From Acidobacteriota bacterium (lineage in GTDB: Bacteria > Acidobacteriota > Thermoanaerobaculia > Multivoradales > JAHEKO01): a stretch of 41,716 nucleotides of DNA. Both the position numbers and the translations under genes were made by a program. Location of the stretch: assembly GCA_029862975.1 (NCBI GenBank), contig JAOTWP010000022.1, positions 1 to 41,716 of the forward strand. Direction: 5' to 3'. Below the pieces are notes generated by a model. The model was not told the origin of the DNA. It saw only the letters and a list, made by a program, of their open reading frames with translations, and ran no database searches. Of this stretch, positions 7,259 through 41,716 are shown in pieces; the stretch's first letter is position 1; every line of letters begins with the position of its first letter.

Positions 7259-7286
7259 ACCGGGGTGGCCGGCCGGGTGGCGCCCG

Positions 7287-8630: not shown

Positions 8631-8636
8631 TCTCCA

Positions 8637-8642: not shown

Positions 8643-8686
8643 GCTTGGGCTCCCGGCCAGCAACCTGCCCGAGCGGCGAGACGGGG

Positions 8687-8715: not shown

Positions 8716-8724
8716 GCCCCCGCC

Positions 8725-10437: not shown

Positions 10438-10462
10438 TCGCTGGCCGAGGCCGCCGCCGACG

Positions 10463-10948
10463 ATGGACGGACGCTGGTTTGGACGGCTGCTGAGCTGGTA
10501 CCCGCCTTTCTGGGGCACGGGGATCCGCTTCCGCGTGGCCGCGGACTACTCCGCGGCCGAGGCGTCGATGACGCTGCGCTTCTACAACCGCAACTACTTC
10601 GGCACCCACTTCGGAGGCAGCCTCTACGCCATGGTCGACCCGGTCTACGTCCTGCTGCTGGCCAACCGGCTCGGTGCGGACTACTCCGTGTGGGACCAGG
10701 CGGCGGCGATCGAGTTCGTCAAGCCGGGCAGGGGCGTCGTCCGGGCCCGGTTCGAGGTCGGCGACGACCGCCTGCGGGAAGTGCGGGCCGCGACGCGCGG
10801 GGGCGCGACGTACCGCCCGGTATGGCCGGTCGAGGTCGTCGACGCGGCCGGCGAGGTCGTGGCCCGGGTGCAGAAGACGCTCTACATCCGCCGCCTGGCG
10901 GGAGACGGCCCGGAGCCGGCCGCGGCAGGCGACGACGCCGGGCGCTAG
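10463..10948 (+). CDS. DUF4442 hotdog-fold thioesterase-like protein
   Basis: A 161-residue cytoplasmic protein. The stretch MTLRFYNRNYFGTHFGGSLYAMVDPVYVLLL is the hotdog-fold core helix region as seen in DUF4442, a PaaI/YiiD-like thioesterase group, and KPGRGVVRARFEV is the following strand pair. The role is probably hydrolysis of an acyl-thioester; the substrate is unknown. It is the third gene after the aminotransferase, 25 nt from the previous stop, and its stop shares CTAG with the convergent SDR gene. Confidence 0.8.
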   Translation: MDGRWFGRLLSWYPPFWGTGIRFRVAADYSAAEASMTLRFYNRNYFGTHFGGSLYAMVDPVYVLLLANRLGADYSVWDQAAAIEFVKPGRGVVRARFEVGDDRLREVRAATRGGATYRPVWPVEVVDAAGEVVARVQKTLYIRRLAGDGPEPAAAGDDAGR

Positions 10949-11730: not shown

Positions 11731-12614
11731 CGCTCGTCTCCGGCGAGGCGCCGGCCGTTCTCGTCGTACGCGTAGACGCCGCGGCCGGTCTTGCGGCCGA
11801 GCCGGCCGGCCTTGACGTACTGCTCCATCAGCGTCGTCGGGCGGTAGGTGTCGCCGAGGGTGCGGTGCAGGAAGCGGAGGATCGAGAGGCGTACGTCGAG
11901 CCCCACGAGGTCGACCATCTCGAACGGTCCCATGGGGTGATTGAGGCCCAGCTTCAAGGCCTTGTCGATGTCCTCGGGGGTCGCCAGGCCGGCCTCGAGC
12001 ATCCGGAACGCCTCGTTGCCGATGAGCGCGTTGATGCGGCTGGTGACGAAGCCCGGCGACTCCTTGACGACGACCACCTCCTTGCCCATGCGCTCGCCGA
12101 CCGCGGCGAGCGCGGCGAGCGTCGCCTCCGCCGTCTCGAGGCCGCGGACGAGCTCGATCAAGCGCATCAGGTGCACGGGGTTGAAGAAGTGCATGCCCGC
12201 GAAGCGGTCGGGCCGGTCGGTGGCCGCCGCCATCTCGGTGATCGAGAGGCCGGAGGTGTTGGACGCCAGGAGCGCGTGCGCCGGGCAGGCGGCGACGACC
12301 TGTCCGAAGATCTCGAGCTTGAGGTCGATCGACTCCGGCACAGCCTCGATCACGAGGTCGGCCGCCGCGACGGCCGCGGCGAGGTCGACGCCGAAGGCCA
12401 GCCGCTCCTTGGCGCGGGCGGCGGCGTCGGCGTCGACCTTGCCCTTCTCGACCCCCCGGTCGAGATTGCGGTGGATCTGCGCTTCGGCCTTGCGCAGCGC
12501 CTCGGGCGCGACGTCGAAGAGCCGGGTCTCGTAGCCGGCGAGCGCCGAGACGTGGGCGATGCCGAGCCCCATCGTGCCGGCGCCGAGTACGGCGAGCTGT
12601 CGGATCTCTGCCAT
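11727..12614 (-). CDS. 3-hydroxyacyl-CoA dehydrogenase (3-hydroxybutyryl-CoA type)
   Basis: A 295-residue cytoplasmic enzyme that interconverts 3-hydroxyacyl-CoA and 3-oxoacyl-CoA with NAD(H). The N-terminal GAGTMGLGIAHVSALAGY is the dinucleotide loop; ASNTSGLSITEMA and HFFNPVHLMRLIELV follow, the latter containing the catalytic His. The C-terminal domain shows GFVTSRINALIGNEAFRMLE and NHPMGPFEMVDLVGLDV. Length is typical of the single-domain Hbd/PaaH group. A GAGAGGGA Shine-Dalgarno lies about 8 nt before the ATG. Its neighbours are the zinc dehydrogenase upstream and the atypical SDR downstream. Confidence 0.93.
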   Translation of the reverse strand: MAEIRQLAVLGAGTMGLGIAHVSALAGYETRLFDVAPEALRKAEAQIHRNLDRGVEKGKVDADAAARAKERLAFGVDLAAAVAAADLVIEAVPESIDLKLEIFGQVVAACPAHALLASNTSGLSITEMAAATDRPDRFAGMHFFNPVHLMRLIELVRGLETAEATLAALAAVGERMGKEVVVVKESPGFVTSRINALIGNEAFRMLEAGLATPEDIDKALKLGLNHPMGPFEMVDLVGLDVRLSILRFLHRTLGDTYRPTTLMEQYVKAGRLGRKTGRGVYAYDENGRRLAGDER

Positions 12615-12702
12615 GGTCGGTCCCTCTCGCTTGGATGCTCCCTGCCCGGATCGGCCCGGGTCGGGCCGTGAAGCTCGCCCCCCGGCGCCGCGCGCGCCGT
12701 CC

Positions 12703-13737
12703 TCAGTCCACGATCAGGACGATCTTGCCGAACTGCTCGCGGCTTTCGAGCGCCGCCTGCGCCGCGGGCGCCTGCGCGAGCGGCAACGTGCGGTCGATCA
12801 CGGGCTCGAGAGCTCCGGACACGACGAACTTTAGCAGGTGCCGCAGCTCCGCCAGCGACCCCATCGTCGAGCCGAGGATGGACTGGTTCTTGAAGAACAG
12901 CATCCGCAGGTTGACCTCGGCGGCCGCCGCCGCGGTGGCGCCGCAGAAAACGAGGCGGCCGCCGCGGGCCAGGACCTTCAGGCTCTTCTCGAAGGTGTCG
13001 CCGCCCACGTGGTCGAAGACGACCTCGACCCCCTTGCGGCCGGTGATCTCCCGCACGGCGGCGACGAAGTCGTGCTCGCGGTAGTTGACGGTGTGGGTGG
13101 CGCCCAGCCGCGTCGCCTTCTCGAGCTTGGCGTCGCTGCCGGCCGTGGCGATGACGTGGCGCGCGCCGAGCAGCTTGGCGATCTGCAGGCCGGCGCTCGA
13201 GACCCCCGAGCCCGCCGCGTGGACGAGCACGTCCTCGAGCGGCCGCAGGCGAGCCCGGGTGACGAGCATGTGCCAGGCGGTCATGAACACGAGGGGCAGG
13301 GCGGCGGCCTGCGCGAAGGAGAGCCCGGCGGGCAGCGGCAGGACGTTGCGGGCCGGCGCGACGACGTACTCGGCGTAGCCGCCGTCGCGGTGCTCGCCGA
13401 GGATCCCGTAGCTTTCGCAGAGCATGTCCTCGGCGCCGATGCAGCGGTCGCAGTGGCCGCAGGAGACGCCCGGAGCGAGGAGGACGGGGGTCCCGATCTC
13501 GTGGTCGCCGGCGCCGGCGCCAACGGCGTCGATCTCGCCGGCGATCTCGCTGCCGGGAACCAGCGGCAGCGGGAACTGATGCCCGGGGACCCCGTCGCGC
13601 ACCCACAGGTCGAGGCGGTTCAGGGCGCAGGCCCGGACCCGAACGCGGACCTCGGTGGGACCGGGCTCGGGAGTCGGCAGCTCGGTCCACTCCAGGGCCT
13701 CCGGTCCGCCGTGGCGACTGATTCTGAAGGCCCGCAC
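12703..13737 (-). CDS. Zinc-binding alcohol dehydrogenase / quinone oxidoreductase family protein
   Basis: A 344-residue MDR-superfamily enzyme. The N-terminal GroES-like half carries the structural zinc lobe CGHCDRCIGAEDMLC (Cys93, 96, 99, 107); the Rossmann half has HAAGSGVSSAGLQIAKLLGA and FDHVGGDTFEKSLKVL. It probably reduces or oxidises a carbonyl or enoyl compound with NADPH; the substrate is unknown. It starts with GTG, with TAGAAT 9 nt upstream, and is the first gene of a minus-strand trio with the acyl-CoA dehydrogenase and atypical SDR, 88 nt from the next start. Confidence 0.9.
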   Translation of the reverse strand: MRAFRISRHGGPEALEWTELPTPEPGPTEVRVRVRACALNRLDLWVRDGVPGHQFPLPLVPGSEIAGEIDAVGAGAGDHEIGTPVLLAPGVSCGHCDRCIGAEDMLCESYGILGEHRDGGYAEYVVAPARNVLPLPAGLSFAQAAALPLVFMTAWHMLVTRARLRPLEDVLVHAAGSGVSSAGLQIAKLLGARHVIATAGSDAKLEKATRLGATHTVNYREHDFVAAVREITGRKGVEVVFDHVGGDTFEKSLKVLARGGRLVFCGATAAAAAEVNLRMLFFKNQSILGSTMGSLAELRHLLKFVVSGALEPVIDRTLPLAQAPAAQAALESREQFGKIVLIVD

Positions 13738-13746
13738 GATGCCGTC

Positions 13747-13752
13747 ATTCTA
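13747..13752 (-). promoter_or_regulatory. Putative -10 box (TAGAAT) of a leaderless promoter
   Basis: TAGAAT on the minus strand ends 9 nt before the GTG of the zinc dehydrogenase. It is close to the TATAAT consensus; no good -35 is visible. Confidence 0.45.
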
Positions 13753-13856
13753 ACCGGCCCCCGGGGCGTCCGGTAGCCGGCCGGCGAGCGCCGGCCGGGC
13801 GCCCCGCGGGGGAGTGCCGCCGAGACCGAAAAACGCTGTGCCTGTGCACCTTTGGG

Positions 13857-28363: not shown

Positions 28364-28780
28364 GTGCGTCTTCTCGTCCTGGATGGAAGCCGGGTCCTGC
28401 CGTCATTGATCCGCCGGCTGGCGCCTCCGGAGGTGGAGGTGGTGTCGGTTCCGGCCTTCGAGGAGGCGGTGGCGAGCATCGCGGACGATCCGCCGGACGC
28501 CGCGATCGTCAACCTGACGCCGTGCGGGCTGCCCTGGAGGGAGCTCAAGGCGGCGTGCCAGCGACACGAGCCGCCGATTCCGGTGCTCTTCGAGTCCTGC
28601 GTCTTCCGCAGCCCGGACGAAGCGGGGCTGGGCCGGTTGGACGCGTCGGCCGCCTTCCTCACGAAGCCCTATCCTCTCTCGCAGCTGCGCCGCGAGATCG
28701 ACCGCCTGCTGCTGGCCGCCGCCGGCGACGAGCAGCCGCCCTTCCGATCCGCCGCGGCCCGGCCCGCAGCGAAGTCGTGA
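28364..28780 (+). CDS. Receiver-like protein lacking the phosphoacceptor Asp (pseudo-receiver)
   Basis: A 138-residue protein with the fold pattern of a response-regulator receiver domain: MRLLVLDGS (strand 1), DAAIVNLTP (strand 3), IPVLFESC (strand 4) and AAFLTKPYPLSQLRREIDRLL (strand 5 with the conserved Lys-Pro and last helix). The phosphorylated Asp at the end of strand 3 is Asn (IVN), and the acidic pair of strand 1 is reduced to one Asp, so normal phosphotransfer is unlikely. There is no output domain. It starts with GTG after a G-rich Shine-Dalgarno, and lies directly upstream of the sigma-54 regulatory region of the cytochrome cluster, to which it may be linked. Confidence 0.78.
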   Translation: MRLLVLDGSRVLPSLIRRLAPPEVEVVSVPAFEEAVASIADDPPDAAIVNLTPCGLPWRELKAACQRHEPPIPVLFESCVFRSPDEAGLGRLDASAAFLTKPYPLSQLRREIDRLLLAAAGDEQPPFRSAAARPAAKS

Positions 28781-29014: not shown

Positions 29015-30100
29015 ATGCGCACTGCCACCCGAATCCTGCTCCTGGCGAGCGTCGCAGCGCTCGTGCTGTGGGGCGTCCCGGCGCTGGCCTTCCACGACGA
29101 GGGCGTCGCCCACTGCAACGGCTGCCATACCATGCACAACAGCTACGAGGGCGAGCCCGTCGACCCGGATTCCCCCGACGGCAACCCGTGGCTGCTCGTC
29201 GACGCGACGCCGAGCGACACCTGCCTCGGCTGCCACAGCTCGGCCAACTCGTCGAGAGGTGTGTTCGACGGCGACTGCTCGGCGGGTCATTCGCTCGAGA
29301 AGGGCGCCGGCAACTACATCTTCCTGACCTGCCCCGACCTGCGGGAGTCCACTCGCGGCGCGGTCATTCCGGGAGAGCGGGCGGGCCACAACCTCGACGC
29401 CCCGGGCCACGGCCTCGTCACGGACACCACCCACATCTCGGCGCCAGGCGGCACCTTCCCGGCCTTGCTGATGGGCTGCACGAGCTGCCACGATCCGCAC
29501 GGCACGTTCTCCTTCCGGCTGCTGTACGGTGCCCGTGAGGTCCAGGGTACCTACAACTTCACCAACCCACCGCCGGTGGCCGAGAAGCTGGACAGCGGCA
29601 TCGGTGGCGAGGAGCCGAACAACCACACCGCCTACCAGAGCGGCATGAGCCTGTGGTGCGGCAACTGCCACACCGACTTCGAGGACATCGGCTTGACCCA
29701 CAAGCACGTCGCCGGGGAGCCTCTCGGGCCCGGGATCGCTCTGGCCTACAACCTCTACAACGGGTCCGACGACCTGATCGGCGGCGACCCGGCCTTCGCG
29801 TACTGGCCGGAAGTGCCGTTCGAGGACGCGGGCATGACGATCGACAACACGGCGGGACCGGCTGCCTCGAGCCAGGTGATGTGCCTGACCTGCCATCGGG
29901 CGCACGCCACCTCGGCGGCCTCCTCGGGGCGCTGGGACTTCAACGTCACCTTCAACGAGGAGGACGGCGACGCCTGGGGCACGTACGAGATGGCCCAGCG
30001 GATCTCGGACCTGAGTCCGAACGCGAACCGCTCGCTGTGCAACAAGTGCCACGTCCAGGACATCGACGACGAGGTCAAGCAGGACGGCGGTCCCTACTGA
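29015..30100 (+). CDS. omcS: OmcS-like hexaheme c-type cytochrome (extracellular nanowire subunit)
   Basis: A 361-residue exported cytochrome. Cleavage after Ala25 gives a mature start FHDEGVAHCNGCHTMHNS, matching the start of Geobacter OmcS (FHSGGVAECEGCHTMHNS, from memory). Six CxxCH motifs occur in OmcS order: CNGCH (34-38), CLGCH (70-74), CTSCH (155-159), CGNCH (215-219), CLTCH (290-294), CNKCH (342-346). Flanking pieces ERAGHN, APGGTFPA, CHDPHG, GMSLWCGNCHTD, CHRAHA and SLCNKCH also fit. OmcS polymerises outside the cell into a heme-stacked filament that conducts electrons. About 70 residues are missing relative to OmcS, mostly between hemes 3 and 5. Two extra Cys (88 in CSAGH and 106) are unusual. 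It is led by a sigma-54 promoter. Confidence 0.9.
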   Translation: MRTATRILLLASVAALVLWGVPALAFHDEGVAHCNGCHTMHNSYEGEPVDPDSPDGNPWLLVDATPSDTCLGCHSSANSSRGVFDGDCSAGHSLEKGAGNYIFLTCPDLRESTRGAVIPGERAGHNLDAPGHGLVTDTTHISAPGGTFPALLMGCTSCHDPHGTFSFRLLYGAREVQGTYNFTNPPPVAEKLDSGIGGEEPNNHTAYQSGMSLWCGNCHTDFEDIGLTHKHVAGEPLGPGIALAYNLYNGSDDLIGGDPAFAYWPEVPFEDAGMTIDNTAGPAASSQVMCLTCHRAHATSAASSGRWDFNVTFNEEDGDAWGTYEMAQRISDLSPNANRSLCNKCHVQDIDDEVKQDGGPY

Positions 30101-30139
30101 TCCCGGCTTCTGAGGGTCTCATCGGCCCCTAGCCTTCGA

Positions 30140-30173
30140 GGGCCCGGAGCGCCAGCGCGTCCCGGGCCCTTTT
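30140..30173 (+). terminator. Intrinsic terminator after the OmcS-like gene
   Basis: GGGCCCGG (30140-30147) pairs with CCGGGCCC (30162-30169), the loop holds a smaller GCGC pairing, and TTTTCTT follows. It lies 40 nt after the stop, so it may give a separate abundant cytochrome transcript with partial read-through into the operon. Confidence 0.78.
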
Positions 30174-30236
30174 CTTGTCTCAGCGATCGACGACGGGCAC
30201 CGAGCTTTCGCAGCGGCACGGCACGCGGGGCTCGCG

Positions 30237-32465
30237 ATGGAAAGTGTGGAGATGCGCGCCGCGGTATGCCATCCTTGCCGCGAAGGTTCTCCGAGGACGC
30301 TCGATGCCGGAAGCGCAGGGAACCACGGGAGAAGTCCGCTGAGGACAGCCGACGACGGTCTCGACCTGGGCGCCCTGCGGGCAAGGGCCAGGTTGCGGCG
30401 CCCGCTGCTGGCAGCCGCGGTGCTGTGGGCGGCGAGCACCGTTCCGGCGCGGGCCGTGGACGTCAACGGCAGCGTCCGGGCCTGGATCGGATCCGTCGAC
30501 GCCGGCGGGCTCCAGAGCGACGAGGAGGATCGGGCGTTCCGGTTGACGCTGACCCAGGAGCTGACGCCCTGGCTGTCGATCTTCGGGTCCTTCCGGGCCA
30601 CCAACTTCCGCACGACCTTCGGGCCGGGCCCGACGTTCGAGCGGACCTCCGAGCAGCCGGAGATCGGCCTCGCCTACAGCCGGAGGAACCTCAACGGGCG
30701 CCTGCTCTTCAGTGACCGGGCCATCCGAACGACGGACGAGAGCCAGGATCTCGACATTCGCACCTTCCTGGCGAGCCTGGATTGGCGTCCCCGGCGCGGC
30801 CCGCGGCTCGGCTTCCGCTTGCAGGACTCGACGAGCACCGCCGACGCCGTGCTCTTCGGCCGCGACACGGCGTCGCGCAGCCTCAACTTCCGCGCCGATT
30901 ACGCGAAGGCCACCTGGAACGCGCGCTACTTCTTCGATGTGACCGACATCACGAACAACAACACCGGCTCGAGCCTCGAACAGAGCCGGCACGAGCTGCG
31001 CACCGGCTATTTCGAGAGCCTGTGGGACGATCGCTGGTCGATCGTCCTGGACGCCAGGCTCGCCGACGTGCGCCAGGTCCAGGAGGCCGCGGCCGGGGCT
31101 ACGGTCGCCCTGCCGCTGCCGGCCGCCCAGGGCCTCTTCGCCATCGATTCGACCCCTGCTCTCGGTGAGCTGGAGCCGGCGCCACAGCTCATCGACGGCG
31201 ACACGGCGCAGCCGGCGGCGCCCGGCGTCGAGATCGGCGGTGCCAATACGTTTCGCAACATCGGCCTCGATATGGGGGTCAGCCGTCCGGTCAGCGCGCT
31301 GGAGGTGAGCGTCGACACTCCGTCCGGACCCGTCGTCTGGCAGGTCTGGCAGAGCCCGGACAACTCGAGCTGGTTCGAGGTCGGCCCGGTGGCGTCGGAC
31401 TTCGACGCCGGGTTTCTGCGCTACAACCTGCGGTTTCCAGAGACCACGGCTCAATACTTCAAGGCGGTCAACCTGTCGGTCAACCCGGTCCTCGACGTGT
31501 CCGTGACGGAGATCCGGGCGCTGCGGGCCGCCGGCGCGCTCGAGCGCACGGAAGGCACCGGCAGCGAGTACTGGCTGAATCTCCAGACCAGCTTGCAGGC
31601 CACCGAGAGGATCGAGGTCTCGGTCGGCGCCAATCTGCGGCGGGATCAGGACCTCGTCGCCACCGACGTGCGCCGCAGCTACGACGAGCGCGGGCTTTCG
31701 GCGCAGGTGCGCTCGGACCTCGGCGCCAACCTGCAGCTGCGCCTCGGATACCGGATCGCCGAGCTCGACGAGAAGGTCGAGCCCGCGCTCGAGCGCCGGC
31801 AGGAGACCGCGACCGCCGCGCTCGACTGGCAGCCGCTCGAAGCCGTCGGCGTGCTCTTCACGGCCCAGCAGCGCGATGAGACGGATGGCGCCCAGCTCTT
31901 GAGCGCCACCGATTCGCTGACCCTCCAGGCCGTCACCCGGATCTTCCCCGATCTCGTCCTCAACTCGACCTTCGGCGTCGCCGACACGAGCAACCTGCTC
32001 TTCGGCTTCTCGCAGGAGACCCGTTTCGTCGTCGAGACGGTCGAGGCCCGGCCCAACGACAGGTGGCTGCTCGGAGGGACGCTGTCGCGTCACGAGTACG
32101 ACTCGGCGGGGCGGGTCGTCGTCACCTTCCGCACCGGCGCCCGGCTGCGGGCATCCTGGTTCGCGACTCCCTTCCTGTCGCTGAGCGGGGAGTGGGGGAG
32201 GAGCGAAGACGACCTCGGCGGCACCACGACGCGGCGCCTCGGCGCGCAGTGGTCGCCGGGACCCAAGCTGGCGCTCGCGGCCAGCTTTTTCGAGACGGAT
32301 GCCTCCACGGGCGGCGGTACGTCGAACCTAGCCTTTGATGGCAGCTACCGGCTCAATCGATGGTTCCGGATGTGGCTGGCGCTCAGCGAAGCCGAGTCGC
32401 TCATCGCCACCCAGGAGCCGCAGACGACCGAAGCACTGAGGCTGGGTATCTCTGCGATATTCTGA
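30237..32465 (+). CDS. Outer-membrane beta-barrel protein of the cytochrome cluster
   Basis: Up to 742 residues. The long chain alternates amphipathic strands (FRLTLTQELTPWLSIFGSFRATNF, SLNFRADYAKATWNARYFFDV, LRLGISAIF) and ends in Phe, the usual outer-membrane signal. A soluble insert at about residues 330-430 (RNIGLDMGVSRPVSALEVSVDT, WQVWQSPDNSSWFEV) resembles a discoidin/F5-8 beta-sandwich. By position it is the likely porin or conduit partner for the cytochromes. The start is uncertain: ATG 30237 puts about 50 residues before the hydrophobic signal, whereas TTG at 30393 would begin a perfect signal peptide, MRRPLLAAAVLWAASTVPARA. I favour the shorter form but give the longer frame. It has no CxxCH. 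Confidence 0.78.
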   Translation: MESVEMRAAVCHPCREGSPRTLDAGSAGNHGRSPLRTADDGLDLGALRARARLRRPLLAAAVLWAASTVPARAVDVNGSVRAWIGSVDAGGLQSDEEDRAFRLTLTQELTPWLSIFGSFRATNFRTTFGPGPTFERTSEQPEIGLAYSRRNLNGRLLFSDRAIRTTDESQDLDIRTFLASLDWRPRRGPRLGFRLQDSTSTADAVLFGRDTASRSLNFRADYAKATWNARYFFDVTDITNNNTGSSLEQSRHELRTGYFESLWDDRWSIVLDARLADVRQVQEAAAGATVALPLPAAQGLFAIDSTPALGELEPAPQLIDGDTAQPAAPGVEIGGANTFRNIGLDMGVSRPVSALEVSVDTPSGPVVWQVWQSPDNSSWFEVGPVASDFDAGFLRYNLRFPETTAQYFKAVNLSVNPVLDVSVTEIRALRAAGALERTEGTGSEYWLNLQTSLQATERIEVSVGANLRRDQDLVATDVRRSYDERGLSAQVRSDLGANLQLRLGYRIAELDEKVEPALERRQETATAALDWQPLEAVGVLFTAQQRDETDGAQLLSATDSLTLQAVTRIFPDLVLNSTFGVADTSNLLFGFSQETRFVVETVEARPNDRWLLGGTLSRHEYDSAGRVVVTFRTGARLRASWFATPFLSLSGEWGRSEDDLGGTTTRRLGAQWSPGPKLALAASFFETDASTGGGTSNLAFDGSYRLNRWFRMWLALSEAESLIATQEPQTTEALRLGISAIF

Positions 32466-32486
32466 TCACGAATGGGAAGGTCCGCC

Positions 32487-33065
32487 ATGACAGAGTTGAG
32501 ACCCACGGTCGCCGCCTCGATCCTCATCGCCGGGCTGACGCTGCTCGGCTGCTCGGGCAATCTCGCCACGACCGAGTTCACGAACCCCCGCTTCGACTTC
32601 GGCTTCGTGGAGCGGGTGGCGGTGATGCCTCTCGAGGACCTGGCCGGCGATCGTCAGGCGGGGCTTCGCGCGACGCGGATGCTGATCACCGAGCTCCTGG
32701 CTTCGGGCGCAGTGGACGTCGTCGAGCCCGGCGAGCTGCAGGCCGTCGCCGATCGGGTCGTCCGCGGCCGCGGCCTGCCCTCCAAGGACGAGATCCTCGA
32801 GCTCGGCCGCCAGCTCGAGGTCCAGGCCGTCATCGTGGGGAGCGTGACGCAGTCCGAGGTGCTGCGCTCCGGCGCCGTCAGCGTGCCCGTGGTCACCCTC
32901 GACCTCCACATGCTGGAGACCGAGACCGGCACGGCGGTGTGGGCGGTGACCCACACCGAAAGAGGGTCGGGCGCTGCCGCGAAGTGGCTCGGGACCGGGG
33001 CGGAGCCGATCTCGGCGACGACCCGTAAGTGCGTCCAAGAGGCGCTGCGGAGCTTGTTTGGATGA
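32487..33065 (+). CDS. CsgG/FlgO-like outer-membrane lipoprotein
   Basis: A 192-residue lipoprotein: signal residues 1-21 end in LLGC with Cys22 as the lipid site. The domain reads RVAVMPLEDLAGDRQAG, ATRMLITELLASGAVDVVEPGEL, LEVQAVIVGSVTQSEV and VTLDLHMLETETGTAVWAVT, the strand-helix pattern of CsgG, FlgO and GNA1162-type proteins, which assemble at the outer membrane; CsgG itself is the curli secretion channel. A GGGAAGG Shine-Dalgarno 6 nt before the ATG at 32487 is better than the earlier ATG at 32472. It overlaps the next gene by 4 bp. Family assignment is by pattern; a channel role here is inference. Confidence 0.75.
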   Translation: MTELRPTVAASILIAGLTLLGCSGNLATTEFTNPRFDFGFVERVAVMPLEDLAGDRQAGLRATRMLITELLASGAVDVVEPGELQAVADRVVRGRGLPSKDEILELGRQLEVQAVIVGSVTQSEVLRSGAVSVPVVTLDLHMLETETGTAVWAVTHTERGSGAAAKWLGTGAEPISATTRKCVQEALRSLFG

Positions 33066-34213
33066 GGCCGGCCACCTTCGCCGGCTCCCTGCTCCTCCTC
33101 GTGGCCGCCGGACTCACCCCACCCGTGGCGGCGGAGCTGCCGCCCGGCCGCGGCGCTCTGCTGCCGGTACAGGACCGCGTCGGGGCAGCGCGGTTCGCCG
33201 GCCTCACCGAGACCCTGCTGCGACGGGAGCTCGAGCCGCTCCGCGACCTGGCCGCGAGCGACGCGGCGCGGGCCGTGCTGCGCTCCCTGCGAATCCGCGA
33301 TGCCGGCAGCGAGTCGCCGGAGCGACTGGCCGCGCTCGCGGACCGGCTGGGAGCCGAGTGGTTCTTCCTTGCCACGCTGCACGAAGCGAGATCCGGCCGG
33401 CGGTCGGCGCGCGACGGCGGCGGGACGCCGACCGATTCCGACTTCGACGATGCCGGCGAGCTTCCGCTCGTGGTCCTCTCGGCCCTCGTCTTGCGGCCCG
33501 ACTCCGAGGAGCTCTGGTGGGCGGGCTTCCACGCCGCGTCCGGTCTCGAAGGCCGGGGCGCCTTCGGTCGCGGGGGGATCGAGACCCTGGACGAGCTGGT
33601 CGCGACCGCGGTTCGCGCTCTCGTCGCGGCGGCCGATGGGCCGGAAGCGTCCCAGGAGCGGACGCGTCTGCGCCGCCGGAAAGGCGGGTTCTTGCGGGCG
33701 TCGCACGAACCCTCGCCGCCCGGCCGCGTTGCGGTGATTCCCATGGACTCGGCCGCCGTGACGACTCCGGGCGCCTCGGCCGCGGTGGCGACCGCGGCGC
33801 TGCTCGCCGCCCTCGAGGACTTCGGCTTCAAGGCTCTGCTGCCGGGTCTCGTGCGGACCATCCGGCAGCAGAGCGGGCAGGGGCAGCACGGGGCCGCGAG
33901 CCGCTCCGAATGGGAGGCTCTGGCTCGCGAGGGGGGTGCGAAGTGGGTGGCCACGGGCACCGTGGAGACCTATCGCGGCGGCCGGGGGGGGATCCCCGAC
34001 CCGGAGGTCGCCCTCGCCGTCCGTTTTCTCGACGCCGCAGACGGCAGGATCGCGTGGCTCGACGGGCTCGAGCGAACCGGCAGCGACACGGCGGTCGTCT
34101 TCGACCGCGGTCGGATCTACACGGCGGGCGGCCTGGCCTACGAGATGATGCGCGCCTTGTTCGGCGCGATGCGGACCGGCTCCGGCAACGCTGGGACGGC
34201 CGGGGGTAGCTGA
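33062..34213 (+). CDS. Exported protein with two CsgG/FlgO-like domains
   Basis: A 383-residue protein with a signal peptide (FAGSLLLLVAAGLTPPVAA). Each half repeats the same series seen in the preceding lipoprotein. Half one: GALLPVQD, LADRLGAEWFFLATLHEA, VVLSALVLRPDSEELWWAGF. Half two: RVAVIPMDS, LAREGGAKWVATGTVETY, VALAVRFLDAADGRIAWLDG. This suggests an internal duplication of a CsgG/FlgO-like domain joined by a basic linker (RTRLRRRKGGF). No lipobox is present. Its ATG lies in the upstream stop (ATGA), so the two proteins are made together and may form a complex. Confidence 0.68.
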   Translation: MRPATFAGSLLLLVAAGLTPPVAAELPPGRGALLPVQDRVGAARFAGLTETLLRRELEPLRDLAASDAARAVLRSLRIRDAGSESPERLAALADRLGAEWFFLATLHEARSGRRSARDGGGTPTDSDFDDAGELPLVVLSALVLRPDSEELWWAGFHAASGLEGRGAFGRGGIETLDELVATAVRALVAAADGPEASQERTRLRRRKGGFLRASHEPSPPGRVAVIPMDSAAVTTPGASAAVATAALLAALEDFGFKALLPGLVRTIRQQSGQGQHGAASRSEWEALAREGGAKWVATGTVETYRGGRGGIPDPEVALAVRFLDAADGRIAWLDGLERTGSDTAVVFDRGRIYTAGGLAYEMMRALFGAMRTGSGNAGTAGGS

Positions 34214-34217
34214 CGCG

Positions 34218-35948
34218 ATGATCTTCGATTCCCTCGCGTTTTCCAGGCCGGCCGCTCCCCTCGTGGCCGCCTGCGCCCTCTTCGGGGCCGTGGCGGCCGG
34301 TTCGCAGATGGAGCTTCCTCCGACGACGGTCGCCGTGGTCAACGGCGAAGCGATCACGATCGAGGACCTGGAGAAGAGCCTGGAGACCCTCCACGGGGAA
34401 GCGGAGACCGCCCAGCGGTCTCCCGCCCGCCTCGAGCGGCTCCTGTTCAAGGCCGTCAACGACGTGCTCATCGGCCAGGAGGCGCGGGTCCTCGGTCTCC
34501 ACGAGGAGCCCCCCATTCCGGAGACGCTCGAGCGCAACCGCCGCCGTCTCGCTCTCTCCATCCTCGAGCGCGAGGAGATCGAGGGTCCCGCCGAGCCGGG
34601 GGACGACGAGGTGACGGCGATCTTCGAGGAAAGGTACCGCCGGGCCAGCTTCCACGTCCTGACCGCCGGGGACTTCGAAGGCGCGGAGCGGATCCTCGAC
34701 GCGCTGCGCGCGGGCGTCGACATCGGAACCGTGGCGCGCGAGCAGTCGATCGATCCCTACCGCGAGCAGGGCGGCCTCGTCGAGGGCGTCGCGAGGAAGG
34801 ACCTGCAGCTCGTCATCGCCGACCTCGTCTTCACGCTGGCCCCCAACGAGGTCGCCGGTCCCGTGCAGACCGATCTCGGCTGGTCGGTCGTCGTCGCGCA
34901 GTCCTTCCAGGGCCCGGACCCGGAGCTCTTCGAGGAGGCTCGCCCGCTGCTCGAGCGCCTGGCCAGGCAGCGCCGCGAGTCGACCCTGCGCCAGGAGCTC
35001 CTGGCCGGGCTGCGTTCGCGCCACGCCGTCTGGATCGATCGCGACCTGGTCGATTCGATCTCGCCCGTGCGGCGCCGGGACGGCCGGCTGACCGCCGAGA
35101 GCCCCGGCCCGGAGACGGTGGTCGCCAGGATCGGCGACGAGATCACTCTGTCCGGCGACGAGTACGCGGTGGCGCTCGAGCGCCGCTGGCGGACGATTCC
35201 CGACGAGGAGGCGGCGCGGGCGGCCGGACCGATCATCCTCGAGAACCTGATCAACGAGCGACTGCTCCTCGCCGAGGCCTACCGCCGCGGCTATCACGAG
35301 CTTCCCGCGGTACGGCGGGCGCTCCACCGGCTGGAGACCGACCTGGTCGTCCCGAAGTACCTGAGCTCGGTGCTCGCCGCCGGCGTCGAGGTGTCCGAAG
35401 AGGAGATGCGCGCCTACTACGAAGAGACCAAGGCCGGCCTCAAGCGGCCGCCTCGCGTGCAGCTCGGGCAGATCACCGTTCCGTCCCTGGAGGAGGCCGA
35501 GAGCGTTGCCGCCGCGTTGCGCGGCGGCTCCGACCTCGGCTGGCTGGCCGAGCGGCACTCGACCGACGGGCTCAGGGACAAGGGAGGAGTCAAGGGCTGG
35601 TCGGTGGTCCGGCCGGGCGGAGCCGGGCTCGACGCGGCGCTCCTCGCGGCGGAGACCGGAGCGACTCTCGACCCGGTGCCGGGGGACGGCGATTCCTGGG
35701 TGGTCTACAAGGTGCTGGCGCGGGAGGAGCAGGGGGTCTACTCGTACGAAGAGGTGTCCGGCAACATGCGCGAAGCGGTCTTCCGGCGGGAATTCACGGC
35801 GGTGCTCGATCGTTTCATCCAGAGTGCCCGCAGCCGGTCCGAGATCGAGGTCCGGGAGGACGTCCTCGCGGCTCTCGAGCTCTCGGGCACGCAGGAGGTC
35901 GAGGACGGCTCGGGACATGGAGGACATGGGGTACACGGTGAGGGCTGA
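34218..35948 (+). CDS. Periplasmic parvulin-type peptidyl-prolyl isomerase (SurA/PrsA-like, two modules)
   Basis: A 576-residue exported protein with signal AAPLVAACALFGAVAAG. It has two similar modules, each a SurA-N-like helical part followed by a PPIC-like part: VAVVNGEAITIEDLEKSLE (from about residue 38) with the PPIC-like EQSIDPYREQGGLVEGV (about 170-190), and VARIGDEITLSGDEYAVALE (from about 303) with AERHSTDGLRDKGGVKGWSV (about 440-460). It probably helps fold or export the multiheme proteins next to it; isomerases of this kind occur with cytochrome filament genes. The C-terminal tail (GHGGHGVHGEG) is His/Gly-rich. It lies 4 nt after the previous gene and overlaps the next. Confidence 0.85.
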   Translation: MIFDSLAFSRPAAPLVAACALFGAVAAGSQMELPPTTVAVVNGEAITIEDLEKSLETLHGEAETAQRSPARLERLLFKAVNDVLIGQEARVLGLHEEPPIPETLERNRRRLALSILEREEIEGPAEPGDDEVTAIFEERYRRASFHVLTAGDFEGAERILDALRAGVDIGTVAREQSIDPYREQGGLVEGVARKDLQLVIADLVFTLAPNEVAGPVQTDLGWSVVVAQSFQGPDPELFEEARPLLERLARQRRESTLRQELLAGLRSRHAVWIDRDLVDSISPVRRRDGRLTAESPGPETVVARIGDEITLSGDEYAVALERRWRTIPDEEAARAAGPIILENLINERLLLAEAYRRGYHELPAVRRALHRLETDLVVPKYLSSVLAAGVEVSEEEMRAYYEETKAGLKRPPRVQLGQITVPSLEEAESVAAALRGGSDLGWLAERHSTDGLRDKGGVKGWSVVRPGGAGLDAALLAAETGATLDPVPGDGDSWVVYKVLAREEQGVYSYEEVSGNMREAVFRREFTAVLDRFIQSARSRSEIEVREDVLAALELSGTQEVEDGSGHGGHGVHGEG

Positions 35949-37875
35949 GCGCCGGCTCGGGGGCCTCGCGATCGCCTTCTGCGTGACGTTTCTCGGCCTC
36001 GCGGGCTGGCGGGCGGCCGAGGCGCAGCTGCGCCCGGGCGCGCGCTTCGAGGAGAAGGGCCAGTGCCTGGAGTGCCACGCCGAGGTGGCGCGCGCGGTCC
36101 GCGAGCCCCATGCGCCCGTGGGGAAGGGCGACTGCGCGGCGTGCCACAAGCCGCACGGACTCGTCGGCGCCTTGCGGCTGCAGGCGGAGGAGCCGGCCCT
36201 GTGTCTCGAGTGCCACTCGGGGCAGGCCGCGGAGCTGGCGGCGAGCCATCAGCATCCCGAAGCCGGCAAGTGCTCCGCATGCCACGATCCGCACGGCTCG
36301 GACCACCCGGCGATGCTCGTCGAGCCCGAGAGAGAGCTCTGTCTGAGCTGCCATGAGGACTCCGGCTTCACGCGTCCGGTCGTCCATGCGCCGGCGGCGG
36401 AGGACTGCTCCTCCTGCCACCTGCCGCACGGCGGCCCCAATCCGCGCCTCCTCGAGCTCGAGCAAGAGGCGCTCTGCGCTACCTGCCACGACGCCGGCCC
36501 GGGGGCGGACTTCGCGACCGCCCACGGCGGCTATGCGGCCGCCGGCTCCGACTGCTCGTCGTGCCACGTGCCGCACTCGGGCTCGACGGAGGCGCTGCTG
36601 CGCGCCTCGGTCCACCCGGAGATGACCTGCGACACGTGCCACGACCCGAGCGCACCGGCCGCTGCGCTCGGGCCGGAGCTCTGCCTCGACTGCCACGAGC
36701 TGCCCCTCGAGCCCGCCGGCGGCTCGCTGCACTACCCGGCCGCGGAGGGCGCCTGTCTCGACTGCCACGACCCCCACGCCACGGACCACCAGCCGCTGCT
36801 GCTCGCCGCCGAGCGCGAGCTGTGCACCGAATGCCACGACGACGTGGCGGCTGCTCTCGACCTGCCGAGCGTGCATCCCGTGGCCGGGGAGTGCTCCTCG
36901 TGCCACGCCGGGCACGCGGCCAGCCACCCGCTGCTGCTCGCGGCCGAGGGGCGGGAGCTCTGCGTGGAGTGCCACGAGGATCCCGAGACCTCGGGCGCAG
37001 CGGTGGTGCACCCGCCGGCGGCCGGCGACTGCCTCGACTGCCACGGCCCCCACGGGACGCCGATCCGCGGCCTGCTCGTCGCCTCCCAGGAAGACCTGTG
37101 CGGAGAGTGCCACCCCGGGGTCGGCAACCGCTCCGGCCTCCCCGTCGTGCACGCGCCTGTGGCCGCCGGGGAGTGCTCGGCCTGCCATCTGCCGCACTCG
37201 GGCGGCGCGCTGCTCCTGCAGGCCGAGGGGGCCGAGCTGTGCGGCGAGTGCCACGAGTCGACCCTCCTGGCGGTGGCCGAGAGCGACCGGCATCTGCCCT
37301 TCGCGGACGGGGACTGCGCAACCTGCCACGCCGCCCACGCGTCGGAGCTCGAGAACCTGATGGCCGCTTCCGTCGGCAGCGTGTGCTCCGAGTGCCACGA
37401 CGTCGAGACGACGGCGCCGGCCGGCGGCAGCGCCCACCGCCCCGTCGTCGAGGGCGACTGCACGGCCTGTCATCAACCCCACGGCAGCGCGATCGCGGGC
37501 TTTCTCCAGGCCAGTCCGCGCCCTCTGTGCACGAGCTGCCACAGCGAGGTCGAGACCCGGCTGGCGACCCTCGACGCGCATCCGCCGGCCGTCGATGACG
37601 ATGGCTGCCTGACGTGCCACGGAGCCCACGCCTCGCCGCACGCCAACCTGCTCGCACAGAAGGTCGACGCATTGTGCACCGACTGCCACGACGGCGAGTC
37701 CGAGGAGTTCCGGAGCCTCCATCTCGGCCTGCCGGCGACGGCGATCGACTGCGGTGGCTGTCACGATCCGCATGCCTCCGAGGGCTCCGGCATGCTGCTG
37801 CCGCGGCTCCACTTCCCGTTCGCCGAGCGCGAGTGCTCGCTCTGCCACGAGGACACCGGGGGGACCGCGCCATGA
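35917..37875 (+). CDS. 26-heme c-type cytochrome (doubled-CXXCH family)
   Basis: A 652-residue exported cytochrome. I count 26 CxxCH motifs, arranged mostly in pairs of the form H-x-P-x-x-x-G-x-C-x-x-C-H-x-P-H-G followed by LCxxCH, typical of doubled-CXXCH repeat cytochromes. No CxxCH is degenerate. The signal segment is LGGLAIAFCVTFLGLAG. Possible starts are ATG 35917, ATG 35926 and GTG 35938; all overlap the isomerase gene (by 32, 23 or 11 bp). It probably stores or relays electrons in the periplasm or at the outer membrane. It is linked to the next cytochrome by an ATGA overlap. Confidence 0.92.
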   Translation: MEDMGYTVRAERRLGGLAIAFCVTFLGLAGWRAAEAQLRPGARFEEKGQCLECHAEVARAVREPHAPVGKGDCAACHKPHGLVGALRLQAEEPALCLECHSGQAAELAASHQHPEAGKCSACHDPHGSDHPAMLVEPERELCLSCHEDSGFTRPVVHAPAAEDCSSCHLPHGGPNPRLLELEQEALCATCHDAGPGADFATAHGGYAAAGSDCSSCHVPHSGSTEALLRASVHPEMTCDTCHDPSAPAAALGPELCLDCHELPLEPAGGSLHYPAAEGACLDCHDPHATDHQPLLLAAERELCTECHDDVAAALDLPSVHPVAGECSSCHAGHAASHPLLLAAEGRELCVECHEDPETSGAAVVHPPAAGDCLDCHGPHGTPIRGLLVASQEDLCGECHPGVGNRSGLPVVHAPVAAGECSACHLPHSGGALLLQAEGAELCGECHESTLLAVAESDRHLPFADGDCATCHAAHASELENLMAASVGSVCSECHDVETTAPAGGSAHRPVVEGDCTACHQPHGSAIAGFLQASPRPLCTSCHSEVETRLATLDAHPPAVDDDGCLTCHGAHASPHANLLAQKVDALCTDCHDGESEEFRSLHLGLPATAIDCGGCHDPHASEGSGMLLPRLHFPFAERECSLCHEDTGGTAP

Positions 37876-39125
37876 CGACGTCGAGATCCCGCCTCGCGGT
37901 GCTCCTGCTGCCGCCGCTCGCCGCCGTCCTCTGGCTCGCGCCGGCGGCGAGCGGGGTCCCCGTGGATCAGGGCGAGGTCTGCCTCGAGTGCCATGACGAC
38001 GTCGCCGCCGAGCTCAGGCTGCCGGTCGAGCATCCGCCCGCCAAGGAGGCGGAGTGCTCCTCCTGCCACAACCCCCACGCGGCGCGCGACGCGGGTCTGC
38101 TGCTCGAGAGGCCGGCGATCCTCTGCGTCGAGTGCCACGCCGACGTCGCGGAGCAGCTGGGGCGGAGGGTCCTCCATCAGCCGGTGGCGGAAGGCCGCTG
38201 CACGAGCTGCCACCGGCCGCACGGCGCCGGCCACGAGAAGCTGCTCCTCGCGGCGGGCGCCGACCTCTGCGTGACGTGCCACGCGGACGTCGCCGGTTGG
38301 CGAGGACTCGCCAACCAGCACTCGCCGTTCGAGCGCGGGCGCTGCACCGACTGCCACGAGCCGCATGGCAGCGAGCACGAGCGCCTGCAGCGGAAGGCCG
38401 GCGGCGAGGTGTGCTCGAAATGCCATCCCGTGAGCGCCAAGTTCCGCTCCGATCACGGCGGCTACCCGGTGGAGCAGGCGAACTGCCGGCAGTGCCACGA
38501 TCCCCACGCCTCCAAGCAGGCCGGGCTCCTGCAGCCCAACGTCCACGAGCCCTTCGCGGCCGGCGACTGCACGCTGTGTCACGTCGCGGTCGGCTCGCCG
38601 GCACCGTTCGCGCTCCGTGTCACCCAGGACGAGCTCTGCGGCGACTGCCACGAGGACGCGGTCGAGGAGAACCGGTCGGCGGCGTTCCCGCACGTCGCGG
38701 CCGGCGGCTCGCGCTGCTCGGCCTGTCACAACCCCCATGGCGGGCAGGGCGGGAGCCTCCTGCGGCGCGAGACCAACGAGCTGTGCCTGTCGTGCCACGA
38801 CCCGGGGGGCAGCGCCACCGGCGGGGCGGGTCACTTCCAGACCCACTCCGAGCTCGGCTGCGATACCTGCCACGCTCCGCACGGCGGCGATCGGCCGGTG
38901 CTGCTGGCGGACGATCCCATCGAGCTGTGCGGCCTGTGCCACTCGCACCAGCACGCCATCACGCATCCGCTGGGCGAGGAGGTGCGGGATCCGCGCAACG
39001 GCCAGGCGCTGGACTGTCTGTCCTGCCACGGCATCCACGAGGCGACGGCGGACAAGTACCTCCACAAGAGCGGCACCCGCGATCTCTGCCTCGGCTGCCA
39101 CAAGGACAAGGGGGTGGTGCGTTGA
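37872..39125 (+). CDS. 16-heme c-type cytochrome (doubled-CXXCH family)
   Basis: A 417-residue exported cytochrome with signal RLAVLLLPPLAAVLWLAPAASG. I count 16 CxxCH motifs, from VCLECHDDVAAEL to DLCLGCHKDKGVVR, in the same paired layout as its 26-heme neighbour, including repeated SCHxPHG. The two probably arose from one repeat family. The ATG lies in the upstream stop (ATGA), and the next gene's TTG lies in this stop (TTGA), so translation is coupled. A role as an electron carrier between inner membrane and the filament or conduit is inferred from the cluster. Confidence 0.92.
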   Translation: MTTSRSRLAVLLLPPLAAVLWLAPAASGVPVDQGEVCLECHDDVAAELRLPVEHPPAKEAECSSCHNPHAARDAGLLLERPAILCVECHADVAEQLGRRVLHQPVAEGRCTSCHRPHGAGHEKLLLAAGADLCVTCHADVAGWRGLANQHSPFERGRCTDCHEPHGSEHERLQRKAGGEVCSKCHPVSAKFRSDHGGYPVEQANCRQCHDPHASKQAGLLQPNVHEPFAAGDCTLCHVAVGSPAPFALRVTQDELCGDCHEDAVEENRSAAFPHVAAGGSRCSACHNPHGGQGGSLLRRETNELCLSCHDPGGSATGGAGHFQTHSELGCDTCHAPHGGDRPVLLADDPIELCGLCHSHQHAITHPLGEEVRDPRNGQALDCLSCHGIHEATADKYLHKSGTRDLCLGCHKDKGVVR

Positions 39126-40042
39126 GACGCGGTGCGTCGAGACGCGAAGCCGCGTCGCTCGTCGGGCGTCGACTGGCGCTCCTCGTCGCCGTGGCGTCCA
39201 TCTGGGCGGCGCCGGCCGCCGGGCAGGACGGCGCGACGCTCTACGCCTTCGACGAGGCGGTCGCGGGCGGCGAGACGCTGCGGCTGCGCTGGCCGACCGC
39301 GGTCGCCGCCGGCGGCGCCGACGAGATCGCCGTCGCCGACGCCGAGGGGCCCTCGCTCGCCGTCTTCCGCGATCTCGGCGGCGGCGAAGGCTGGGTCGTC
39401 CACGCCGCGATCGAGCTTCCGGCTCCGGCCTACAGCGTGTCGTGCGGCGCCGATTTCTACCTGATCTCCACCCGCCGGCCAGGAGTTCTGCTGACCGTCG
39501 CCAAGAGCGACTACACCCTGCGCGAGCTCGCCCTGGCGCCGGGCATCACGCCGGGCGCCGCGACCTGCCTGCCCGACGACCGGCTGCTCGTCCACGATCT
39601 GGCCGCCGGCCGGCTGGTCGTTCTCGACGGCGCCGGGAAGGTGCTGACGGCGGTGGCGATCGCCGAGACGGTCGCCGCGCTGGCCCCCGGAGCGGGCGGC
39701 GGCTTCTACGCCGCCCTTCCCGGCGCGGGGGAGGTGCGGCGCTACGGCGCCAACGGCGAGCAGCTGTCGTCGCTGAAGCTGCCGGGGGTGGGTCCGACGC
39801 CCGCCTGGCCGGTGGGTCTGGCCGTCGAGGCCAACGGCGAGGTCGTCGTCGTCGATCGGCACGGGGGCAGGATCCTCGTCGTGGAAGCGAGCGGCCGCCT
39901 GGCAGGCTCCGGCTCGCGCAAGGGGTGGGAGCCCGGCCTGCTGCGCTTCCCGGCCAGCCTTGCCAGGCTCCCGGACGGCAGGGTCGTGGTCGCCGATCAG
40001 GGCAACGGGCGGGTCCAGCTGTTCCGCCGCCTCGAAGAATGA
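39122..40042 (+). CDS. Exported NHL/six-bladed beta-propeller protein
   Basis: A 306-residue protein with a signal peptide (RRLALLVAVASIWAAPAAG) and about six repeats with the NHL pattern, e.g. RWPTAVAAGGADEIAVADAEGPSLAVF, WPVGLAVEANGEVVVVDRHGGRILVV, FPASLARLPDGRVVVADQGNGRVQLF. Such propellers mediate protein contacts and are found beside extracellular cytochrome filament genes. The TTG start at 39122 shares TTGA with the previous stop; no other in-frame start would keep the full signal peptide. Its end overlaps the next propeller gene by ATGA. Confidence 0.85.
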   Translation: MRRGASRREAASLVGRRLALLVAVASIWAAPAAGQDGATLYAFDEAVAGGETLRLRWPTAVAAGGADEIAVADAEGPSLAVFRDLGGGEGWVVHAAIELPAPAYSVSCGADFYLISTRRPGVLLTVAKSDYTLRELALAPGITPGAATCLPDDRLLVHDLAAGRLVVLDGAGKVLTAVAIAETVAALAPGAGGGFYAALPGAGEVRRYGANGEQLSSLKLPGVGPTPAWPVGLAVEANGEVVVVDRHGGRILVVEASGRLAGSGSRKGWEPGLLRFPASLARLPDGRVVVADQGNGRVQLFRRLEE

Positions 40043-41716
40043 GGGCTCGCGGCGGCAGCACGGTGCTGGTCGGCGTGCTGGCGGGACTGCTCCTGCTCGT
40101 CGCGGACGCCTCCCTGGGCCAGCCGCCCGGCCCGATCCCTCCCCGCTACGCCCAGCGCCTGCGGATGCCCATCCGCGGCGATGACCTCCAGCAGCCGCGC
40201 GCGGTCGTCGCCGACCCGCACACCGGGGAGATCTTCGTCTGCGACGGCCTGCGCAACCGGATCGTCATCTTCGACGAGGAGGGCCGGTTCCGCTACGAGA
40301 TCCCGGGGGGCAGCGATTTTCAAACGCCGATCGACGTCGCCGTGGATCCCCAAGGGTACCTCTTCGTGCTGGGCCAGGTCAGCGGCCGGATCATGCTGCT
40401 CGACTTCGACGGGCGACTCGTCCGCGGACTGCCGCTCGAGGGCCTGCCGGAGGACGCCGGAAGCCCCGGCTTCGCCTCCCTGGCGATCTCGCCGAGCGGC
40501 GAGAGACTCTACCTGCTGGACGCCGAGAACGACCGCCTGTGGATGGCCGATCGCGAGGGCGCGATCCTGGGCGCAGTCGACTTCACGGCCGGCCGCACGC
40601 CAAAGGAGATCGACGAGCTGCGCTACGGCCACGTCGACGTCTACGGCGACACGGTGCTCGTCGCGGTGCCGAGCGACGGGCTCGTGCACCTCTTCGACCT
40701 GGAAGGCCGCGCCAAGGGGACCGTCGGCGCCCAGGGCGCCGCGGAGTGCCAGACCATGTTCCCCGTCGCCGCGGCGCTCGACGACCAGGGGAGGGCGATC
40801 ATCCTCGACCAGCAGCGGGCCCTCTTCATGACCTGGGACCTGGCGCGCAACGCCTGCCTGAGCGAGCACTACGGCTTCGGCAACGCGCCCGGCGCCTTCT
40901 ATCAGCCCAGCGACCTCGCCCTCGACGCCGCGGGCCGCCTCTGGGTCAGCCAGGGCTTCGAGGGACGGGTCCAGGTCTACGAGGGGGCTCGCCCGGCGCT
41001 CGCGCTGCTCGCGGCCGCGCCGCCCGCGCCGCCCGCCCCGGAAGCCTCCGCGGAGCCCTCGATCGCCGGCCTGGGGACGGGCGGGCAGGAGCCCGAGGAG
41101 CCCGGCGCCGCGGCCCTTCCGCCGGCAGAGCCCGCCGCGCCGGCGGAGCCCGAAGTCGCGACGGCCGAGGCGAAGCTGCTTCCGCCGGCAGAGCCCGCCG
41201 CGCCGGCGGAGCCCGACGTCGCGACGGCCGAGGCGAGGCTCCTTCCGCCGGTAGAGCCCGCCGCGCCGGCGGAGCCCGAGGTCGCGACGGCCGAGGCGAG
41301 GCTCCTTCCGCCGGTAGAGCCCGCCGCGCCGGCGGAGCCCGAGGTCGCGACGGCCGAGGCGAAGCTGCTTCCTCCGGTAGAGCCCGCCGCGCCGGCGGAG
41401 CCAGAGGTCGCGACGGCCGAGGCGAAGCTGCTTCCGCCGGTAGAGCCCGCCGCGCCGGCGGAGCCCGACGTCGCGACGGCCGAGGCCGAGCCCCGTCTCG
41501 TTGCGGGCGCTCTGCTGTCGGTCGCGAGGGCGCCGCGCTACGATCCCAGCTACGCCGAGCTCGCCTATCCGGGAGGCGACGTGGCGGCCGACCGCGGTGC
41601 CGCCGTCGACGTCGTCGTCCGCGCCTTCCGCCACGCGGGGGTCGATCTGCAGCGAGCGGTCCACGAGGACATCGTCGCCGCCCCCGCGGCCTACGGGATC
41701 GCGGAGCCCGACGCGA
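40039..41716 (+). CDS. Beta-propeller (NHL) - repeat linker - DUF1287 fusion protein, C-terminally cut by window
   Basis: At least 559 residues; the 3' end is beyond the window. A signal peptide (VLVGVLAGLLLLVADASLG) leads to a propeller of about residues 40-330 (LQQPRAVVADPHTGEIFVCDG, TPIDVAVDPQGYLFVLG, YQPSDLALDAAGRLWVSQG). A Pro/Ala/Glu linker follows with six copies of a 21-residue unit (LPPxEPAAPAEPxVATAEA; residues about 360-483). From about residue 495 the sequence RYDPSYAELAYPGGDVAAD and DLQRAVHEDI matches DUF1287 (E. coli YijF type). The family's conserved Cys in GVCTDVV is Ala522 here (GAAVDVV). The domain pairing is unusual; function unknown. It is translationally coupled to the previous propeller gene. 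Confidence 0.85.
   Translation, partial: MRARGGSTVLVGVLAGLLLLVADASLGQPPGPIPPRYAQRLRMPIRGDDLQQPRAVVADPHTGEIFVCDGLRNRIVIFDEEGRFRYEIPGGSDFQTPIDVAVDPQGYLFVLGQVSGRIMLLDFDGRLVRGLPLEGLPEDAGSPGFASLAISPSGERLYLLDAENDRLWMADREGAILGAVDFTAGRTPKEIDELRYGHVDVYGDTVLVAVPSDGLVHLFDLEGRAKGTVGAQGAAECQTMFPVAAALDDQGRAIILDQQRALFMTWDLARNACLSEHYGFGNAPGAFYQPSDLALDAAGRLWVSQGFEGRVQVYEGARPALALLAAAPPAPPAPEASAEPSIAGLGTGGQEPEEPGAAALPPAEPAAPAEPEVATAEAKLLPPAEPAAPAEPDVATAEARLLPPVEPAAPAEPEVATAEARLLPPVEPAAPAEPEVATAEAKLLPPVEPAAPAEPEVATAEAKLLPPVEPAAPAEPDVATAEAEPRLVAGALLSVARAPRYDPSYAELAYPGGDVAADRGAAVDVVVRAFRHAGVDLQRAVHEDIVAAPAAYGIAEPDA
41116..41487 (+). repeat. 63-bp in-frame tandem repeat, about 5.9 copies
   Basis: Units begin at 41116, 41179, 41242, 41305, 41368 and 41431, each exactly 63 bp and 21 codons, encoding a Pro/Ala/Glu-rich linker. 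Copies differ by only a few bases (gca/gta, gag/gac, aag/agg), so the array expanded recently. Confidence 0.95.

Follow-up and report, generated by a model that had tools for sequence, protein, structure and literature searches.

The locus at 29015-41716 of the DNA analysed here is very probably an acidobacterial osc (omcS-companion) operon, a system also named oetABI/omcS. Based on fold and synteny, the operon probably produces an OmcS-type cytochrome nanowire, exports it and provides its electrical connection. The window, i.e. the whole stretch of 41,716 nucleotides, is the entire contig C220 of an assembly (G000) of 4.49 Mb, which is 93% complete and consists of 309 contigs. In the window the operon comprises nine same-strand genes, A to I, which are listed here together with an upstream candidate regulator and the remainder of gene I.

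28364..28780, + strand: candidate regulator, a small protein like a degenerate response-regulator receiver; operon membership uncertain
29015..30100, + strand: gene A, OmcS-type hexaheme filament cytochrome; 6 CXXCH; PDB 6ef8, E 5e-38
30237..32465 (start 30237 or 30420), + strand: gene B, predicted outer-membrane beta-barrel, OscE/OetI position; AlphaFold model
32487..33065, + strand: gene C, PelC/LpoB/CsgG-like lipoprotein, OscF position; Pfam LpoB, CsgG
33062..34213, + strand: gene D, tandem PelC-like periplasmic protein, OscG position; hhalign and model
34218..35948, + strand: gene E, PpiC/SurA-type prolyl isomerase, OscH position; Pfam Rotamase families
35917..37875 (alternative start 35926), + strand: gene F, 26-heme periplasmic cytochrome, OscI position; 26 CXXCH
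37872..39125, + strand: gene G, 16-heme periplasmic cytochrome, OscJ position; 16 CXXCH
39122..40042, + strand: gene H, NHL beta-propeller; Pfam NHL, E 2e-13
40039..41716 (cut by the contig end), + strand: gene I, NHL beta-propeller, Pro/Glu repeats and DUF1287; Pfam NHL, DUF1287
G000:C114:1-876: remainder of gene I with a second DUF1287 copy; C114 sequence

Gene content and heme count

Six-frame translation of the whole window gives 48 CXXCH motifs, all within three plus-strand ORFs: 29015-30100 has six, the frame that ends at 37875 has 26 and 37872-39125 has 16. None is found outside these ORFs or on the minus strand. The ATGA overlaps at 33062, 37872 and 40039 and the TTGA overlap at 39122 are exact. 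The 48 heme sites and the single-strand arrangement with 4-bp overlaps given in the initial annotation are thus confirmed, and the parts it named are also recovered (the OmcS match, and the PpiC, CsgG/LpoB, NHL and DUF1287 domains). For two of them the support is of a different kind: the barrel is a predicted one of about 28 strands with no Pfam match, and of the CsgG-like pair the first protein is recognised by Pfam, while the second lacks a Pfam match and is placed by profile and fold comparison. The nine genes are all present in the set described as ending at 41716, but this position is the end of contig C220, so that the DUF1287 gene is incomplete in the window; a second OmcS-like gene is found on contig C114.

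The protein at 28364-28780 has Asn where receivers usually have the phospho-acceptor Asp, and the Pfam search gave no match for it. A conserved counterpart adjoins the operon of G011 (L032) and G008 (L034), two further genomes of the family; beside the remaining operons no homologue was found.

Identity of the operon

In Geobacterales the gene order is omcS, YVTN propeller, B, C, D, E, F (26-heme) and G, from which genes B to G map by position to OscE to OscJ. The letters E to H were assigned by the order in Geobacterales loci (Geobacter, Geomonas, Citrifermentans), not by G. sulfurreducens sequence. The osc operon of G. sulfurreducens (GSU2494-GSU2504) has the same order, omcS, OscE, OscF, OscG, OscH, OscI and OscJ, with an NHL propeller nearby, as here. 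PMC13194489 names GSU2501 as oscC, GSU2495 as oscI and GSU2494 as oscJ; citing Shen et al. 2025, it attributes folding to OscH, secretion to OscE/F/G and morphology to OscD. GSU2495 has 26 hemes (PMC12977616), and the YVTN propeller GSU3586 has been placed with the omcS region (PMC3495685, PMC10599522). In contrast to G. sulfurreducens, the locus studied here is without the OscD YVTN propeller, has its NHL propellers on the downstream side, closes with a second divergent omcS and carries DUF1287 on the last propeller. It is a variant of a known machine, marked by the absent OscD, the two divergent OmcS genes and the DUF1287 domain.

The oetABI cluster has been read as a porin:cytochrome conduit adjoining OmcS/OmcX in sulfate reducers (Murali et al. 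2023, PMC10553843). The oetABI/omcS-like/omcX cassette of syntrophic sulfate reducers combines a barrel, multiheme cytochromes and OmcS-like proteins, as here; it is described as an electron conduit and is likened to our locus by gene content, not by OetA/B/I sequence. From this content and the G. sulfurreducens region we infer that the osc and oetABI names cover the same genes. The general reading of a locus for extracellular electron transfer had already been given in the initial annotation, which missed the osc/oet name, the absence of OscD, the second OmcS and the second DUF1287 copy.

Distribution across bacterial lineages

A scan of 84,980 species genomes returned 77 OmcS-like loci, which span Krumholzibacteriota, Calditrichota, Zixibacteria, Delongbacteria, Gemmatimonadota, Desulfobacterota, Nitrospirota, Myxococcota, Schekmanbacteria and others. 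The same gene order is found in at least seven phyla, including loci of Geobacterales, Nitrospirota, Myxococcota and Krumholzibacteriota, and this rules out a chance grouping of genes. The proposal of a coupled OmcS-type nanowire locus is upheld by this conservation across many phyla. The neighbours of OmcS homologues keep their order, also in Geobacterales, and CcmC/CcmF-type genes for c-type cytochrome maturation are present in the genome; both of the refuting conditions named in the initial annotation are thereby excluded.

The barrel is found in 57 loci of the combined sets. Among the barrel loci with enough flanking sequence, C and D are each present in 52 of 53, including those of Geobacter, Geomonas and Citrifermentans, E in 43 of 48 and the OmcS gene in 42 of 43. 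The CsgG-like pair, which had been regarded as new to such a set, is ruled out as a novelty by these counts. Within the Acidobacteriota, a strong OscF-like match (E below 1e-50) is seen in 17 of 396 sampled genomes; the 16 besides the window genome were all retrieved and contain the cluster.

Six relatives (G006, G011, G014, G055, G001 and G012), drawn from the family of the window genome and a neighbouring family, were compared. The order A-B-C-D-E-F-G-H-I with a nearby A2 recurs in G006, G011, G014 and G055, and partly in G001 and G012. Their F and G proteins have 26 and 16 hemes where complete (for F of G014, L051, 26 are counted on the open frame). G006 (L036 = G006:C200) is a close relative within Thermoanaerobaculia (Acidobacteriota), belongs to the same family and has the same cluster, which makes an acidobacterial origin of the window probable.

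A YVTN propeller gene separates omcS from the barrel gene in 38 of the 47 loci with enough upstream sequence and is absent from nine. The window lineage lacks this OscD-position propeller, with only about 0.3 kb between A and B in the window, and the same is seen in some other Acidobacteriota and a few unclassified genomes. Because all other parts are kept, OscD is taken as variable and not as defining. G008, a genome of the same family, contains a Geobacter-type operon with a YNCE/YVTN-like propeller; the two operon versions in one family probably result from transfer.

The OmcS-type subunits

The match of gene A to OmcS (PDB 6ef8, phmmer) covers residues 26-314 in two stretches. Its six heme-motif His, like six further ones, are invariant in 12/12 family sequences and conserved in at least 113 of 122 homologues. 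The His of CHTMHNS (OmcS mature residue 16) is found in 113/122 homologues and in 12/12 family sequences; in the 2019 OmcS structures it is reported to ligate a heme of the next subunit. The retention of this presumed inter-subunit ligand, together with that of the assembly genes, argues against the view that the OmcS-like proteins here are soluble or surface electron carriers which never polymerise, and we consider that view improbable.

Two divergent OmcS-like genes, A and A2, bracket the operon. In a tree of 122 sequences they fall in different clades, both within a group of 41 (support 100) that also contains Krumholzibacteriota, Calditrichota and Zixibacteria and is apart from the Geobacter group. 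L037 and L038 likewise hold one OmcS-like gene per clade. In three genomes the gene tail to tail with the second OmcS gene encodes a membrane protein whose C-terminus is TPR-like (L006:2034-3902, L026:2796-4568 and L028:8407-9513).

The barrel and the PelC-like proteins

The model of gene B (pLDDT 90) shows about 28 barrel strands by a count on the DSSP line; a beta-sandwich inserted at about 241-383 resembles CBM32/F5-8C. Pfam and NCBIfam searches gave no match for genes B and D. The top structural match of B is MtrB (Z 17.9, rmsd 7.7), with other barrels reaching up to Z 17.0.

PelC, CsgG and FlgT form rings in the cell envelope. Gene C has a lipobox-like LLGC at its N-terminus, and its profile matches PelC (5t11) at E 3e-10. 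PelC ranks first in PDB profile searches for both C and D (D profile: E 3e-13); a plain phmmer search of D against the PDB gives marginal matches only. The two proteins align with each other in hhalign (probability 99.5%, E 4e-22), C pairing with the second half of D. In the model of D (pLDDT 84) one helix-strand order occurs twice, giving two like domains; the second aligns to PelC of PelBC with Z 14.2 and rmsd 3.5 over 140 residues, and CsgG, FlgT and LpoB score lower. C and D belong to one superfamily and are placed in the PelC family, and D is a tandem duplication of a PelC-like domain. The PelC-like folds of C and D are supported, and B is a large predicted barrel. In G008:C13 (L034:6179-8023), the OscG-position protein has a coiled coil as well as an NTF2-like domain, Cds6_C, which is the accessory domain of the last propeller in other genomes.

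The locus can be compared with two known envelope systems. As in PelBC exopolysaccharide export, PelC-like proteins are encoded beside an outer-membrane barrel, but the barrel here is larger and has a sandwich insert, the second ring-type protein is tandem-duplicated, and the cargo would be a cytochrome and not a polysaccharide. As in MtrCAB, a large outer-membrane barrel and multiheme cytochromes share one operon, and MtrB is the top structural match; F and G, however, with their 26 and 16 hemes, belong to the paired-CXXCH type, and the PelC-like and PpiC genes are extra.

The second comparison bears on the Oet model, in which barrel B would sheathe part of the 26- or 16-heme cytochrome, as MtrB does around MtrA, and would move electrons and not protein, with OmcS filaments docking outside and being exported otherwise. 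This is how Murali et al. 2023 (PMC10553843) read the homologous oetABI, and both the MtrB match and the presence of multiheme cytochromes in the operon of the barrel are consistent with it. MtrB is ahead of other barrels by just about 1 Z unit, however, and the barrel is nearly always accompanied by two PelC-like proteins and usually by a prolyl isomerase, an export-type set which is foreign to MtrCAB. A pure conduit is possible but rather doubtful. An export role for B, C and D, which follows from the analogy with PelC and its barrel, appears reasonably likely.

The multiheme cytochromes

Of 37 complete F homologues, 35 have 26 hemes. Among the complete G homologues, 18 have 16 hemes and the rest are mainly 42-heme fusions with F. 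Four of these fusions have 42 CXXCH motifs (L052:5239-8532, L058:5368-8598, L089:11115-14303 and L159:1339-4632), with F on the N-terminal side and G on the C-terminal side, and L160 is a truncated fifth case. The natural fusions suggest that F and G act as a single wire, which would cross the periplasm.

With such a wire, secretion and conduction could also be combined: the barrel would export OmcS and then stay plugged by the filament base, which would touch the F/G wire, so that the secretion channel becomes the conduit. One operon does hold the export-type genes B, C, D and E together with the F/G pair, which can be a single 42-heme protein, and the predicted 28 or so strands would make a wide pore. 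We regard this combined function as a tentative and rather doubtful alternative.

The window genome contains a second multiheme cluster (L162, G000:C102, about 743-13800), with ORFs of 21, 4, 7 and 13 CXXCH interleaved with NHL propellers, one of which has Cds6_C; stop codons lie within some of the motif matches.

Gene I, DUF1287 and the continuation on contig C114

In gene I, six near-identical 21-residue Pro/Glu repeats (LLPPVEPAAPAEPEVATAEAK, window 41116-41490) join the propeller to DUF1287. Contig C220 breaks off inside a DUF1287 matching the one at the start of C114, and the break is attributed to the near-identity of the DUF1287 repeat. On C114 (3.9 kb) the order is the DUF1287 end, a linker, a second complete near-identical DUF1287 and then the second OmcS-like gene (A2), whose start overlaps the DUF1287 gene by 4 bp; DUF1287 on this contig matches PF06940 at E 1e-48. 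In G006 and G001 the last propeller gene is directly followed by the second OmcS-like gene, and on this basis C220 was joined to C114. We infer that the two contigs adjoin, which gives a complete operon of A-B-C-D-E-F-G-H-I-A2 and 54 hemes.

The C-terminal domains of the last propeller are variable: G006, G001 and G011 have the NTF2-like Cds6_C. DUF1287 was found fused to this propeller in just two genomes, that of the window, with two tandem copies, and that of its congener G001. The fusion, which the initial annotation had taken as new together with the CsgG-like pair, is by the sequences compared a genus-level addition. The tail of gene I of the window genome (SWKILAERVVGVQGE) resembles the end of an NTF2-like domain, which suggests that DUF1287 replaced such a domain.

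The presumed catalytic Cys of the G-x-C-T-D motif is absent from the NlpC/P60-like DUF1287 of gene I, which reads GAAVD (GASVD in G001). Stand-alone DUF1287 proteins of the order retain GVCTD, whereas the fused copies examined are all without Cys (GAAVD, GASVD, GSGVD, GNAAD); for this comparison L117 and L118 were taken from full ORFs. Other Cys-less copies in the order are fusions with unrelated proteins of the envelope or of ParA-like type (L124, G000:C48; L116, L117, L118, L119 and L122). The domain sits on AAA_31/ParA-like proteins in L118 and L122 and, in L124 of the window genome, on a protein matching T2SSB weakly, below the Pfam cut-off. Its presence on various envelope proteins hints at a peptidoglycan anchor, and an anchoring role for DUF1287 on gene I is conceivable, if unlikely.

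Proposed mechanism

The sequences show the gene content and order, a homologue for every gene in the Geobacter-type locus and an OmcS homology in which the heme-ligand His are kept; the roles of the individual proteins are taken from fold and synteny. Apo-OmcS would leave via Sec and receive its heme from the Ccm system, and the PpiC protein E would assist its folding. C and D may stack as periplasmic rings beneath barrel B, an arrangement modelled on PelC under PelB and much like that of CsgG for curli. The resulting B-C-D channel would pass OmcS to the surface, where it would polymerise. F and G, placed end to end, could form a 42-heme wire across the periplasm that feeds electrons to the filament base. 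The propellers H and I may be assembly or docking factors, and the Cys-less DUF1287 of gene I may hold the machine to peptidoglycan.

The Geobacter-derived roles, including the importance of OmcS, are themselves disputed: PMC11077965 reports that Fe(III) oxide reduction persists in a strain deficient in omcS.

Significance

How cytochrome nanowires exit the cell and link to their electron supply is still open, and the secretion mechanism has been termed speculative (PMC12307469). The placement of the OscF- and OscG-position proteins with PelC, together with the 26+16 fusions, gives a testable ring-and-barrel exporter with a periplasmic heme wire. The form without OscD and the arrangement with two OmcS genes are natural experiments on dispensable parts.

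For the lineage, a speculative and rather improbable picture would have Cys-less DUF1287 as a peptidoglycan-binding anchor used on the osc propeller, on a GspB-like type II secretion protein and on ParA/tyrosine-kinase-like proteins, with an OscD-less osc variant whose nanowire combines two divergent kinds of OmcS, perhaps one for the shaft and another for the base or tip. The locus marks nanowire potential in uncultured Acidobacteriota.
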